NCBI GenBank assembly: GCA_030602615.1
Contig: JAUVZM010000011.1
Span: forward strand, 1-55,793
Reading direction: 5' to 3'
DNA length: 55,793 bases
Source: a bacterium
GTDB taxonomy: Bacteria; Armatimonadota; Zipacnadia; Zipacnadales; Zipacnadaceae
Positions within the stretch are counted from its first letter, which is position 1. Each line of letters begins with the position of its first letter. Below the pieces are notes generated by a model, which saw only the letters and a list, made by a program, of their open reading frames with translations, made no database searches and was not told the origin of the DNA. Shown here in pieces: positions 12,478 through 32,933 of the stretch. The position numbers and the translations under genes were made by a program.

Positions 12478-13263
12478 TTAGGCGTTGATTTCTTCCCGCA
12501 CCGCCAGGATATGGTCCAGGGTATCTGGCGTCGGCCCCGTTGGAGCGTACTCCAGGCCGATGAAGCCGGTGTAGCCGGCCTCGTCAATCGCAGCCAGCAC
12601 GTTGGCGTAGTTGATCTCCCCGGTGCCCGGTTCGTGACGGCCCGGGACGTCAGCAGTGTGGAAATGGCCGATCAGTCCGATGTGAGAGGTAATGGTGGCG
12701 ATGAGGTTGCCCTCGGTGATCTGCTGGTGATAGATGTCATAGAGCAGCTTCACCGCGGGGCTTTGTACCTGCTCGACGATCTCGAAGCCCTCCAGGCTGG
12801 ATGTCAGGAAATACCCGGGATGGTCAACCAGGATATTGAGCGGCTCGAGGACGAGCGTGACGTCGGCTTCTTCGGCCAGAGGTGCTGCCGTCTTCAGGCA
12901 GGCGACCACACCGGCGTGGGCGCGGTTGCGGTTGATGTTGATTGGTATAGGTGTAGCAATGTTTGTAGTGCAGATCAGGGTCTTACAGCCCACGGTCTGC
13001 GCGGCGGCGATCGCCTGCTGGGTAGCGTCAGCAAATCTGTCAGCCAGGCTGTAATCGAGCATCCCCTCGGGCGCATCTACGATCATTGCTGCCACTGGTA
13101 GATCAGTATTCTGGCAGGCGCTGGCTACCGCGTCCAGGTCCTTGTTGGAGTAACTCCAGAACTCGACACCGTCCAGGCCAGCCTCGGCTGCCGCTGGGAT
13201 GCGCTGGCTGAACTCGTCAATCTCCGGGAACAGCATCTCAATGCAAGCGGAGAGCTTTATCAC
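12478..13263 (-). CDS. Hydroxypyruvate isomerase-like TIM-barrel protein
   Basis: A 261-residue protein of the xylose-isomerase-like / AP endonuclease 2 TIM-barrel superfamily, closest by eye to hydroxypyruvate isomerase (Hyi). It shows the N-terminal KLSACIEMLF strand, LVLEPLN with a metal-ligand Glu, GLIGHFHTADVPGRHEPGTGE with the His/Asp/Glu metal residues, and GFIGLEYAP with the final Glu. It would interconvert a small ketose/aldose pair, but the substrate is uncertain. The start is a GTG at 13261-13263 with GGGAGG about 8 bases upstream. In the minus direction it follows the sugar kinase at 16256-17692, from which it is separated by the VIT-vWA gene and repeats. Confidence 0.8.
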   Translation of the reverse strand: MIKLSACIEMLFPEIDEFSQRIPAAAEAGLDGVEFWSYSNKDLDAVASACQNTDLPVAAMIVDAPEGMLDYSLADRFADATQQAIAAAQTVGCKTLICTTNIATPIPININRNRAHAGVVACLKTAAPLAEEADVTLVLEPLNILVDHPGYFLTSSLEGFEIVEQVQSPAVKLLYDIYHQQITEGNLIATITSHIGLIGHFHTADVPGRHEPGTGEINYANVLAAIDEAGYTGFIGLEYAPTGPTPDTLDHILAVREEINA

Positions 13264-13317
13264 GTTACTACCTCCCTGTGGATTTGCTATGACGCCAGTT
13301 TCTGCGCCAGGCGTTGG

Positions 13318-13390
13318 GTGACCTTCCCCCTCGCAGCCGCGAGCTTCTCAGTTCGGCCTGCTGGTGCCGACTACCCTATGGCTGGCCTGC
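13318..13390 (+). repeat. 73-bp direct repeat, copy 1 (left of the VIT-vWA gene)
   Basis: Copy 1 matches 16226-16298 at 66 of 73 positions in the same orientation; similarity stops at both ends. Read on the minus strand it encodes a version of the last residues of the sugar kinase (VVGTSRPN then stop), so it looks like a duplicate of that gene's 3' end plus about 30 bases downstream. It lies in the non-coding leader of the VIT-vWA gene. Confidence 0.85.
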
Positions 13391-13512
13391 CTCTGCCTCC
13401 GGCTTACCTCGTCGAATGGAACAAATCTGGCCTCGTTTTTGTCAAACGATATAGAGGGTGGCGACCCTCGCTGACAAAGGCTACGATGATTGTGGGAAGG
13501 GAGACGATTTCA

Positions 13513-16128
13513 GTGATCAGGACAGCGAAAGAGAGTGCTACGGTGGCAACGATTCTGGCGCTGGTGTGTATGGGCGGGGGGTTGGTGTGGCTGCAACAGG
13601 GAGCAACTGCGCCAGCGGAGGCGATGGAGGCGCGGCCTACACCCGGCTCGCTGGCAGTGGTTAACGAAGAGGGCGAGGTGGTCGGTATGTGCCCGCTGAA
13701 GCACACCGATGTGCGCACCGAGATTTCCGGCTTCGTCGCCCGTGTGGAAGTCACCCAGCAGTTCCACAATCCCTACGACGAGAAGATTGAGGCAGTCTAC
13801 ACCTTCCCGCTGTCGCAGAAGGCGGCGGTAGACGACATGCTGATGAAGGTCGGCGACCGCGAGATTCGTGGGGAGATCAAGCGGCGCGAGGAGGCCCGCC
13901 GCATCTACGAGGCGGCCAAGCGAGCCGGTCACGTCGCCAGCCTGCTCGACCAGGAGCGGCCCAACATCTTCACCCAGTCGGTCGCGAACATTATGCCGGG
14001 GGAAAACGTGGACATTACGATCCGCTACGTGGAGGTGCTCAAGTTCGAGGATGGCTGGTTCGAGTTTTCCTTCCCGACGGTGGTCGGGCCGCGCTATATC
14101 CCCGGGGCACCGACGTCGAGGCAGCCCGAGGTCCCGCCGGAGCTTGAAGGCCAGGTAGTGCAACCAGACGTCCCCGAAGGCACCGGGGAGCCACAGGGTA
14201 CGGGCTGGTCGCCGGACACTGATCAGGTACCCGACGCCTCGCGCATCACGCCGCTGGTCACCGCGCCGGATACCCGCGTCGGCCACGATATTTCGATCAG
14301 CGTAGAGATTCATGCCGGTGCGCCGATCAGGGAGCTGGAGTCGAAGCTGCACGACATCAGCGCCGAGCATGACGGCGAGGTCGCGCACGTGCGGCTCAAG
14401 GAGAAGGCCACGATCCCCAACAAGGACTTCATCCTGCGCTACACGACCGCCTCGGAGGAGATCGAAGACGCGGTGCTGGTGCACGCCTCGGACCTGGGGC
14501 GCTTCTTCACGCTGATTCTGCAGCCGCCCGAGCGCGTCCGGCCCGAGCAAGTTACCCCCAAGGAGATGGTCTTCGTCCTGGACACCTCCGGGTCGATGCG
14601 CGGCGAGCCAATCGACAAGGCCAAACAGACGATGTTCCACTGCCTGGATAGCCTCGACCCCAGGGATACTTTCAACTTCATCACCTTTGCGGGCGCAACG
14701 CAGGTCATGTTCGACAAGCCAGTGCCAGCGAGCGAAAAGAATACTGAGAAGGCCCAGGAGTTCCTCGAGGGTCTCGAGGGTAGCGGCGGCACGGAAATGA
14801 TGACAGCGATTCGCGTGGCGCTGGCGCCTTCAGACTCGCAGGAACATCTGCGCATCGTCTGCTTCATGACAGACGGCTACGTTGGCAACGACATGGCGAT
14901 CATTGACGAGATCCAGCGCCATCCCAATGCCCGAATCTTCTCGTTCGGCATCGGCCAGTCGGTGAACCGCTTCCTGCTGGAGAACATGGCCAAAGCCGGA
15001 CGCGGGGAAGTGGATTACGTGACGCTGGGCACGCCTGGGGAAGAAGTAGCCGAGCGCTTCTACGAGCGGCTGCGCAACCCGGTGCTGACCGACATTGAGA
15101 TTGACTGGGGGGAGTTGCCCGTCACCGAGATTTATCCCCAGAGCATCTTAGACCTGTTCAGCAGCAAGCCGGTAGTGATATACGGTCAGGCCCGAAAGGC
15201 GGCGCGCGGCGAGATTGTACTGCGAGGCAAGGTCGCCGGCAGGCCCTTCGAGCGGGAGATCTTCGTCGCCTTGCCCGGCCGGGAGCCGGGCCACGAGGTG
15301 CTCGGTGCGCTGTGGGCGCGGCAGAAGATCGAGCACCTGATGAACCAGGACTGGGCCGGTATCCAGCGCGGCAGCCCCCGCACTGAAATCAAGGAAGAGA
15401 TCATTGACCTGGGCCTGAAGTTCCGGCTGGTCACCCAGTTCACCTCATTCGTAGCCGTTGAGTGGATGGTCATCACCGAGGGCGGCGAGGCGCGCACGGT
15501 CCCGGTGCCCGTGGCGATGCCCCAGGGCGTCACCTACGAGGGCGTGTTTGGTGAGCACAAGGCTGTTACCGCTCAGACTTCTTTCGGTATACCGTGGAAT
15601 GTAGGAGGCGGGTATGGCTGGTATGGGCATGGTGCAGGGGGGATGGCAGGACCGGCCGGCCCGCCAGCAGCTTCAGTGACAGCGGGTCTGCCAGGCCCGG
15701 CCGGCCCAGTGGCGTCCGATGAACTTGATTACCTGCAGGACGATGTCTGGGACCTGGCCGACCGGGTCACAGCGCTCGAAGCGGCTGAGGGACGGGAACT
15801 GACACCAGAGGAGAAGCGCAAAGTCATTCTGGAGTATTGCCTGGCCGGAGAACTACACGGCCTGGCTGAGAAGGTCGCCAGCGAAGGGCAGGACGGTAAT
15901 CTCACGATCGGCGACATTGAGGTCAAAGGCGGACTGGTCGAGGTCGCCATCTGGCTGACCGATGATTCTGAGGAGAACCTGGCCAAGCTCAAGGAGCTCG
16001 GCTTCCAGGTGCTGGGCCAGGCGAAGAGCGTAAAGATGCTAATCGGCAAGCTGGCGGTGGACAAGCTGGAAGAAGTCGCGGTGCTCGACTTCGTGCGCTT
16101 GGTCGAGCCGGCGCCTACCAGCGGATAG
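13513..16128 (+). CDS. Exported VIT and von Willebrand factor A domain protein
   Basis: An 871-residue protein from the GTG at 13513 (GGGAAGGGAG 8-10 bases upstream; an ATG at 13486 is the alternative). A signal peptide or anchor (SATVATILALVCMGGG) leads into a VIT domain (about 50-180), an Ig-like stretch, then a vWA domain (about 350-525) with the MIDAS motif DTSGS near 356. Near 696-735 is a Gly/Pro-rich, collagen-like stretch (AGPAGPPAA, GLPGPAGPV). The C-terminal 110 residues are a compact alpha/beta domain (LKELGFQVLGQAKSVKM). The layout resembles bacterial relatives of inter-alpha-trypsin inhibitor heavy chains, which are surface proteins. No LPXTG or PEP-CTERM tail is seen. It lies between two sugar genes and inside two 73-bp repeats. 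Confidence 0.88.
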   Translation: MIRTAKESATVATILALVCMGGGLVWLQQGATAPAEAMEARPTPGSLAVVNEEGEVVGMCPLKHTDVRTEISGFVARVEVTQQFHNPYDEKIEAVYTFPLSQKAAVDDMLMKVGDREIRGEIKRREEARRIYEAAKRAGHVASLLDQERPNIFTQSVANIMPGENVDITIRYVEVLKFEDGWFEFSFPTVVGPRYIPGAPTSRQPEVPPELEGQVVQPDVPEGTGEPQGTGWSPDTDQVPDASRITPLVTAPDTRVGHDISISVEIHAGAPIRELESKLHDISAEHDGEVAHVRLKEKATIPNKDFILRYTTASEEIEDAVLVHASDLGRFFTLILQPPERVRPEQVTPKEMVFVLDTSGSMRGEPIDKAKQTMFHCLDSLDPRDTFNFITFAGATQVMFDKPVPASEKNTEKAQEFLEGLEGSGGTEMMTAIRVALAPSDSQEHLRIVCFMTDGYVGNDMAIIDEIQRHPNARIFSFGIGQSVNRFLLENMAKAGRGEVDYVTLGTPGEEVAERFYERLRNPVLTDIEIDWGELPVTEIYPQSILDLFSSKPVVIYGQARKAARGEIVLRGKVAGRPFEREIFVALPGREPGHEVLGALWARQKIEHLMNQDWAGIQRGSPRTEIKEEIIDLGLKFRLVTQFTSFVAVEWMVITEGGEARTVPVPVAMPQGVTYEGVFGEHKAVTAQTSFGIPWNVGGGYGWYGHGAGGMAGPAGPPAASVTAGLPGPAGPVASDELDYLQDDVWDLADRVTALEAAEGRELTPEEKRKVILEYCLAGELHGLAEKVASEGQDGNLTIGDIEVKGGLVEVAIWLTDDSEENLAKLKELGFQVLGQAKSVKMLIGKLAVDKLEEVAVLDFVRLVEPAPTSG

Positions 16129-16225
16129 AGCTGATAGGTCCGTATCTGCCGAAGCACAAACAACAGGCGTCCGGCACAGCGGCGGCAACCGTGATATGAG
16201 TACGGGAGGCCTATTCTGTCGCCGT

Positions 16226-16298
16226 GTGACCTTCCCCATTGCAACCGCGAGCTTCTCAGTTCGGTCTGCTGGTGCCGACTACCTCACGGCTGGCCTGC
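16226..16298 (+). repeat. 73-bp direct repeat, copy 2 (right of the VIT-vWA gene)
   Basis: Direct repeat of 13318-13390 with seven mismatches, scattered and mostly changing codons in the plus frame, so it is not a conserved plus-strand peptide. Bases 16256-16298 are the 3' end of the minus-strand sugar kinase, including its stop codon; the other 30 bases are downstream of that gene. Confidence 0.85.
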
Positions 16299-17692
16299 TG
16301 AATATCCGAAAATTGGCCGGTGGCAACTGCCGCACACAGCGCCGCGCCTACCGCTGCTTCCTCCGTATAGATGGTCATCTGCAGAGGCAGGTCAAACGAA
16401 GCCGACAGAATATCAGCAAGCAGTTGGTTCTTGCGGATGGCGTTGCCGGAACCGACCAGTAGATCGTGGTCACCGAGGCCGGCTTGCTGCATGCGCTTAT
16501 ACAATATTTTGATCTGCTCGGCCAGTCCTTCCAGCAGGGCACGGGCCATATGACCGGGGGTGAAGTTGGCCGGGCTCATCCCCCGCCAGATGGCCCGCCG
16601 TTCGGGCTGCTGGCGCGAACCGGTAAAGAGCGGCTCACAGTGGAGTCCGTCGGCGCCGGGGGGAACCTCACTGGCCACTTGGTTAAGTACATCATATATG
16701 TCTGGCATATCGGCGAGGCCGAAGATATCTCGGCCAACTTGATAGAAAAAATCGCGCAGTAGCTGGTAGGAGCGCCCGCCACAAAGCCCGGCGCCTACCA
16801 GGAGGAAGCCGCTTCCCAAAGCGGGGCGCAGATCTAATCCCTCGGCCAATAGCAGTTGTTCAGTGAACGCGGAGATCTGGGCGCCGGTGCCGATGTTGAC
16901 CAGCACGCTGCGGTCGTAGTCAGCCACACTGCCGGCGAAGCTGGCCTGATTGTCGCCGCAGCCGTTGGCCACGGGCAGGCCTGCTGGCAGGCCAGTGCGA
17001 GTAGCGCTGGGTTCGGTGAGATTGCCGACGGCCTGGCAACCGGGCTGCACCGGCGGCAGATGTCTTGCACATAGCCCTAGGGCGGCGATAAGCTCGTCGT
17101 TCCACGCGTCTGCCATCACGTCAAAGAGGCCGGCGCTGGCCGCATTGGTTGAGTCCGTCACTGGCTGGCTGTCACACAAGCGACTGACCAGGTAGTCGGG
17201 AGCGAAGCAGGCTGTGGTGTCCGCTGGCAACAGGTCATTGTGCTTCAGCCAGAACAGAGTTGAGCCCATATAGCCGGTGGCGGGAGTGCAGCCGCTCTGC
17301 TCAAAGCCATCGCCGCCCAATTCCAGCATCTGCTGCAGGTAGGTCCTGTCTCCGGATACCTGTTCCTCGCAGCGTTGGTCCTGCCAGCCGATGAAGGGGC
17401 TTACCGGCTCGCTGGCCGCATCCAGCAGCACCATTCCGTGCATCTGCCCGGTGACGCCTAAGCCAGCGAGCGCATTAACCTCAATGTGTTCGGTGACAGT
17501 GCTGATGACCTGCAATGAAAGCTCAACCATCCGGTCAATATCCCATTCACTGCGGCCGGGGGACTTCTCGTCACCGGATAGTCTGCTGTCGTTGGGAATG
17601 CTGTGGCGGGCGATCACCTGCGCCGAATCAGTATCCAGCACCACTCCCGCGATGGTGGTGGTGCCCAGGTCTATTCCCAGGTATCTGCTCAT
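16256..17692 (-). CDS. FGGY-family carbohydrate kinase, sedoheptulokinase-like
   Basis: A 478-residue sugar kinase with the actin-like ATPase fold. N-terminal phosphate motif GIDLGTTT (6-13), substrate-side motifs GVTGQMHGM and WQDQRC, catalytic-base motif GCGDNQASF, and C-terminal adenosine motif LLVGSGNAIRKN. The MHG/WQDxRC pair, the NIGTGAQ stretch and the GAGLCGGRSY motif make it look more like sedoheptulokinase/D-xylulose-type kinases than glycerol kinase; the exact sugar is uncertain. The last 14 codons lie within the 73-bp repeat. Together with the isomerase-like gene it probably formed a minus-strand sugar-catabolic pair. Confidence 0.82.
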   Translation of the reverse strand: MSRYLGIDLGTTTIAGVVLDTDSAQVIARHSIPNDSRLSGDEKSPGRSEWDIDRMVELSLQVISTVTEHIEVNALAGLGVTGQMHGMVLLDAASEPVSPFIGWQDQRCEEQVSGDRTYLQQMLELGGDGFEQSGCTPATGYMGSTLFWLKHNDLLPADTTACFAPDYLVSRLCDSQPVTDSTNAASAGLFDVMADAWNDELIAALGLCARHLPPVQPGCQAVGNLTEPSATRTGLPAGLPVANGCGDNQASFAGSVADYDRSVLVNIGTGAQISAFTEQLLLAEGLDLRPALGSGFLLVGAGLCGGRSYQLLRDFFYQVGRDIFGLADMPDIYDVLNQVASEVPPGADGLHCEPLFTGSRQQPERRAIWRGMSPANFTPGHMARALLEGLAEQIKILYKRMQQAGLGDHDLLVGSGNAIRKNQLLADILSASFDLPLQMTIYTEEAAVGAALCAAVATGQFSDIQQASREVVGTSRPN

Positions 17693-17738
17693 CGCGCCTC
17701 AGCTCTACGCTTGGTAACGGTGATATGTGCATCTTCAT

Positions 17739-28438: not shown

Positions 28439-28507
28439 AGGCTGCTGAGAGTCTCCACTGATATATTGAGCAGGACCGGTCATGGCTGGGCGGCACCAGA
28501 AGTGCCG

Positions 28508-28532
28508 GTAGGAGCGGCATTCCTGCCGCGAC
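28508..28532 (+). repeat. REP-like palindrome A with GTAG head
   Basis: A 25-base element starting GTAGGAGC, with a hairpin GCGGCA-TTCC-TGCCGC (28514-28529) and ending GCGAC. Its first 24 bases are identical to the element at 32898-32921 read on the other strand. It lies in the hypD-hypE gap, paired with an inverted relative 18 bases away. Confidence 0.75.
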
Positions 28533-28550
28533 TACTCTTGCTCCTACAGC

Positions 28551-32801: not shown

Positions 32802-32897
32802 AAGCTACCTGCTTTGTTGGCTTGCTTGGTTAGTGCTATTGCATACTTCCTTTTGTTTAGACGTGTCTCCTTCGCGCTGCGTTGAAGCCCGCTAGAC

Positions 32898-32921
32898 TCG
32901 CGGCAGGAATGCCGCTCCTAC
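32898..32921 (-). repeat. REP-like palindrome C
   Basis: Identical over 24 bases to element A (28508-28531) but on the minus strand: GTAG head, GCGGCA-TTCC-TGCCGC hairpin, GCGA end. It lies in the 186-base gap between the divergent hypB and hypA genes, just upstream of the hypA promoter. Confidence 0.75.
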
Positions 32922-32933
32922 CATCCGGTATGC

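Follow-up and report, generated by a model that had tools for sequence, protein, structure and literature searches.

How did a single gene come to stand between a sugar kinase gene and a sugar isomerase gene that are read from the opposite strand, with a direct repeat on either side of it? The locus that raises this question lies in a contig of 55,793 nucleotides (hereafter the window, which is the entire contig C54) from a genome of 2.45 Mb in 83 contigs, designated G000. The organism belongs to a little-known group, relatives of Candidatus Zipacnadia in the phylum Armatimonadota. A sequence-only reading of the window had proposed that the enclosed VIT-vWA gene was gained as a unit bounded by 73-bp repeats, either through recombination or through an uncharacterised integration process.

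The genes and the repeats

The three genes of the locus and the segments that we distinguish between them are listed in Table 1. The kinase belongs to the FGGY family and scored 187 bits against the xylulokinase model TIGR01312, under the cutoff of 380. Its last 13 codons and its stop (16256-16258) fall inside the right repeat, and the left repeat keeps the corresponding minus-strand reading, ...VVGTSRPN-stop, both just as the sequence-only reading had described. That reading was equally correct in recognizing one opposite-strand gene between the repeats and neither a transposase nor an integrase: neither the open reading frame list nor a domain search yielded a second gene in the insert, which carries the VIT-vWA gene alone. 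The mechanical open reading frame of this gene is 936 aa long and opens with a GTG at 13318, inside the left repeat, while homology to the sister genome G006 favours a start in the region of the ATG at 13486. The protein is predicted to be exported, as an N-terminal signal or anchor can be discerned by eye. It is related to TIGR03788, the marine proteobacterial sortase target protein family, which likewise combines a VIT and a vWA domain. The window protein has the same pair of domains, but its score of 521.7 bits is short of the curated cutoff of 551.65 and its C-terminus (...VEPAPTSG) displays no sorting signal by eye. Residues 744-774 of the protein (window ~15715-15807) recur in the genus, for example at G000:C57:73197-73289 (74%).

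Table 1. Features of the kinase-isomerase locus, in window coordinates.
Feature	Position	Strand	Evidence and remarks
TIM-barrel sugar isomerase	12478-13263	minus	AP_endonuc_2; hydroxypyruvate / 2-oxo-tetronate isomerase-like
Left direct repeat	13318-13390		Duplicated kinase 3' end, runs natively into isomerase spacer; relict stop 13348-13350
Moved block, by homology to the G006 VIT loci	13391-16180	plus	C46 homology from 13380, C17 homology to 16180
Inserted VIT-vWA gene, 880 aa	13486-16128	plus	Pfam VIT 7e-38 and VWA
Filler, 34 nt, at the 3' junction	16181-16214		Matches neither G006 VIT locus nor target
Extra native target sequence beyond the 73-bp repeat	16215-16225		Common with G006 upstream of isomerase; window 16271-16215 against L107 10248-10303
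Right direct repeat	16226-16298		Native kinase 3' end and spacer; aligned to G005 over 16330-16229
FGGY-family sugar kinase, 478 aa	16256-17692	minus	Pfam FGGY_N 1.5e-42 and FGGY_C
Junction homology CGGCTGGCCTGC, 12 bp	16287-16298		In native kinase tail; identical in G006 C46 10485-10496, VIT upstream flank

The two repeats share one orientation, agree at 66 of 73 bases and begin 2908 bp apart, in keeping with the figure of about 90% identity that had been given for them. When the window's own genome was searched at E<=0.001, two copies only were recovered, and many dispersed copies, named by the sequence-only reading as the finding that would speak against it, are thus not seen there. The second copy was returned with an E value of 7e-23, so the similarity is not a matter of chance. 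When direct repeats of 40 nt and longer, up to 10 kb apart, were sought across the whole 55.8-kb window, this pair alone was found. The longest exact run common to both copies is 20 bp, which makes a k-mer assembly artefact at the repeat unlikely. We also considered that the sequence might be a dispersed repeat or the end of a mobile element, and rejected this given its two genomic copies only, the lack of any Rfam match in 13200-16400 and its unremarkable folding (z scores of 0.2 and 0.04); terminator and promoter scans likewise found nothing inside it. Elsewhere in the window, a motif of 26-28 bp is present at 28505-28533 and 32895-32922, in both orientations, and has many near-exact copies in genomes of the genus.

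The empty site in related genomes

We searched for the kinase and the VIT gene in 61 genomes, including the window's own, and for the isomerase, together with the VIT gene once more, in 15 genomes of the family. A close kinase (at least 77% amino acid identity) adjoins the isomerase in three of the seven genus genomes, own genome included, namely that of the window, G005 (85% identical to the window kinase) and G003 (78%). G004 encodes a 61% kinase away from the isomerase, and G001, G002 and G006 encode distant kinases only. A spacer of 84 nt separates the kinase stop from the isomerase start in both G005 and G003, with no insert, and each pair lies on one contig, so genome incompleteness is irrelevant here. 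Because these relatives have kinase and isomerase adjacent without the gene, the VIT-vWA gene was gained in the window by insertion between the two. The sequence-only reading had anticipated this gain and had suggested a search for uninterrupted pairs in relatives, and the opposite scenario, in which the VIT-vWA gene would be ancestral at this place, finds no counterpart among the relatives, none of which was found to carry the gene here. A different VIT-vWA gene occurs near the isomerase in G004 (L106 5526-9842, ~27% identical) and in G001 (L111, with the gene start only on the contig); these genes were judged unrelated.

The same relatives reveal where the repeats come from. The repeat sequence is present once at the empty site of G005, where it was aligned with both window copies, and G003 has the kinase end once before the isomerase, followed by a diverged spacer. 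Both copies align to a single native sequence in G005 and in G006, and in the G005 alignment native sequence extends from the left copy into the isomerase spacer and from the right copy into the kinase. By these alignments, the repeats derive from the 3' end of the FGGY kinase gene plus the spacer to the isomerase gene.

VIT genes at other loci

Close VIT genes (E 1e-100 or better) are found in three of the 15 family genomes, those of the window, G006 and G009. The sister genome G006 encodes two of them, on contigs C46 and C17, at loci unrelated to sugar genes, and it has no VIT gene at its isomerase. Where they overlap, the two share 84.5% identity, and each is ~88% identical to the window at the nucleotide level; both loci are cut by contig ends. 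Neither locus has a kinase tail beside the gene on the readable side: the 5' flank of C46 has only 12 bp in common with the kinase tail, and the other flanks are cut by contig ends. The other full-length-type VIT match in G000 (contig C22) is ~32% identical, and there is no near parent copy in that genome. Contig C31 of G000, which is syntenic with the upstream flank of C46, contains no VIT gene, so the window's lineage either has lost its donor copy or had it at another place. C31 also matches the C17 flank over 61 bp, a short isolated similarity that was dropped. As a locus of the sister genome, C46 is therefore a candidate donor only, and not a proven one. A plasmid search with the VIT gene returned 19 records, all below 60% identity and none covering 80% of the query.

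A further dispersed motif of ~44-52 bp, with some copies near 230 bp, was encountered at many places in the genus (for example L065 9939-9990, L108 18851-19078 and L066 2565-2599), in five of seven genus genomes in one search and in one more in another. It lies at a synteny break upstream of one G006 VIT gene as well as just upstream of a recombinase-like zinc-ribbon/HTH open reading frame, and is possibly a small mobile element.

The junctions

From 13380 onward, within the inner edge of the left repeat, the window is homologous to C46, and it is the 12-bp CGGCTGGCCTGC common to the kinase tail and the C46 flank that accounts for the position of this edge. Runs of at least 12 occur at random junctions of these sequences with a frequency of 2.2e-5, itself an overestimate since the sample includes true VIT homology. 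On the other side, homology between the window and C17 stops at 16180, 34 nt short of native target. No short homology is demonstrable at this 3' junction, which holds the filler instead. The filler bases 16184-16198 match at 15 of 15 positions a G006 sequence that lies upstream of the lost kinase, and at 13 of 15 a sequence in the window at 17713, which could reflect a further short template switch or chance. Alignment with G006 further indicates that the right copy is native as far as 16215, ~11 bases beyond the 73-bp match, and hence that ~84 bp of target were duplicated. The exact length of 73 bp is therefore without meaning, and the 73-bp unit does not correspond to a defined element end. 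Two parts of the sequence-only reading are not supported by these results. The precise 73-bp unit dissolves into a 12-bp homology junction at one edge and a boundary ~11 bp farther out at the other, and the same combination of homology at one edge with filler at the other lends no support to an uncharacterised integration process.

Proposed mechanism and its rivals

The explanation that we consider probable is that short-homology illegitimate recombination brought a copy of a VIT-vWA gene into the spacer between kinase and isomerase. The moved copy would consist of the gene with ~100 bp of upstream and ~50 bp of downstream sequence. Along the minus strand, synthesis or joining would have passed through the kinase end to ~41 nt past its stop (~16215), switched from there to a VIT gene at another locus, entering it at the 3' end, copied through that gene into its own upstream flank, and returned to the target through the 12 bp common to the VIT flank and the kinase tail. 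Since this return would have taken place ~84 bp upstream of where the target was left, the kinase end would be present twice. We infer the order of these steps, the exact donor and the choice between template switching and the joining of a circular or linear fragment. Taken together, these features appear to be the signature of short-homology recombination, or of template switching, in which the target was entered again upstream of the exit. Such an event calls for neither an integrase nor a transposon end and gives the impression of ordinary, rare recombination at short homology. Several points run against this explanation. The candidate donor C46 belongs to a sister genome and the corresponding part of G000 contains no VIT gene, the 3' junction shows filler in place of short homology, and the close genomes are apparently all MAGs. 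In addition, the outer part of the right copy is closer to G006 (1 of 11 positions differ) than to the left copy (6 of 11), a likeness that a simple late duplication does not predict.

This last observation would be expected if the right copy were the attachment sequence of an element, as in a single crossover of a circle carrying the VIT gene together with ~84 bp of kinase tail, whether Campbell-type or site-specific with an integrase acting in trans. Such a crossover would also account for a gene 3' end as target, for the restored coding end and for a product with target-like direct repeats, and circles integrated by single crossover in E. coli left target-end duplications of 109-950 bp in the 14 sequenced clones reported (PMC3240628). 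Nonetheless, we regard it as unlikely, since the insert contains no integrase, the G006 VIT loci lack a kinase tail on their readable side, and the sequence exists in two genomic copies only. A tandem duplication of the kinase end that preceded the arrival of the VIT gene between the copies is improbable: the divergence of the copies (7 of 73) would have left time for it, but it requires two events and an insertion exactly at the joint of the copies, where the 12-bp homology would be a coincidence. Still less probable is that a genuine mobile element transposed here and produced an exceptionally long target-site duplication. Such a transposition would explain target-made direct repeats around one gene and the presence of that gene at different loci in two sister genomes, but no transposase was found, no inverted pair joins the ends of the insert (weak pairs only), and homology of 12 bp between donor flank and target is not expected from it. 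Moreover, classical bacterial elements duplicate far less target sequence than ~84 bp. Finally, a metagenome assembly chimera, which comes to mind because the close relatives are apparently MAGs and the window's 83-contig genome is probably one as well, is hardly credible, as both flanks are native and two false joins would be needed, exact repeat runs do not exceed 20 bp, and the gene is of the same genus (~88% nucleotide identity to G006).

Age of the duplication and the same spot in G006

Across 12 kb elsewhere in the window, G006 is the nearest relative (87-90% nucleotide identity in its longer matches), followed by G005 (83-87%) and G003 (80-82%). Fourfold-site differences amount to 60 of 261 for CTP synthase against G006 and 46 of 218 for the kinase against G005; the CTP-synthase rows with G003 were left out of this comparison as out of frame (one stop, 27.6% nucleotide against 89% amino acid identity). 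A late event, as suggested by 7/73 set against these fourfold rates, was withdrawn because, in a comparison over the same 46 nt, the two copies and G006 lie at about equal distances from one another, with 4/46 differences between left and right, 3/45 between left and G006, and 4/45 between right and G006. All three are far from G005 (15-16 differences). In the 11 nt that follow, the right copy sides with G006 (1/11 differ) against the left copy. In a hand count with G005 as the outgroup, three sites join the right copy with G006, one joins the left copy with G006, and none cleanly joins both copies; the three sites fall inside a 7-nt stretch and could stem from one event. We do not claim that the duplication arose after the split from G006. 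On thin evidence, it may be as old as that split, with G006 being a gene-less recombination product, and the single G006 copy is right-repeat-like to ~16218 and left-repeat-like beyond. That the insertion predates the split between the window species and G006, and that G006 then lost the gene by recombination between the repeats, is a tentative reading that we would on balance not expect to hold.

G006 has also changed at this very spot. In place of the kinase ORF it carries 2.2 kb of other DNA (L107 8014-10247, compared with window 16272-17690). The replacement begins at the AT of the kinase start codon and ends some five codons short of the stop, and within it L107 8891-10228, interrupted by a gap, matches a gene region of contig C59 in the same genome at 87-88% identity. 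The junction has thus taken in a gene-bearing segment in each of two sister genomes. When C59 is compared with contig C22 of G000 (L159, L160), flanks of 92-96% identity enclose a stretch without a match, perhaps another gene-level replacement.

Comparison with known systems

In microhomology-mediated break-induced replication, template switches at short homology reportedly generate complex insertions, fillers and duplications. The window resembles it in such sequence features, and the process itself was put forward for human copy-number variation (PMC2621351). Among the transposed genes of Arabidopsis, single non-transposon genes lie between direct repeats of ~30-290 bp, several of them 66-80 bp; for the cases set out by Woodhouse et al. 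(2010, PMC2869330), these repeats are mostly genic, occur at the empty orthologous site and are in some instances absent from the parent site, and excision of a circle between tandem repeats was proposed. The window similarly presents a gene at a new locus between genic, target-derived direct repeats, with an empty site and a single repeat there, but no near parent copy was found in its own genome. Unlike those plant cases, at least as that account presents them, the bacterial junction has 12 bp in common with the flank that lies upstream of the gene itself. Homology-facilitated illegitimate recombination in bacteria involves 3 to 10 bp of homology at the illegitimate junction (PMC3240628). 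The system of that report is laboratory conjugation with plasmid DNA, unlike the window, and the classical process it treats leads to deletions, whereas the window contains a duplication. Gene replacement by the same kind of recombination has been modelled for other bacterial gene arrays (PMC5361080). We view the present case as another instance of target-repeat-flanked gene insertion, for which bacterial precedents are possible, and we infer its mechanism from one junction.

In bacteria, the gain of a single gene is difficult to observe when no mobile element is involved. With an empty site, two sister loci and homology at a junction, a step of gene relocation becomes examinable at the level of individual bases. 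Should the insertion indeed predate the split from G006, the kinase end would be a reusable docking point, where gene-sized segments come and go without enzymes of their own, a reading that is also hinted at by the replacement of the kinase in G006.
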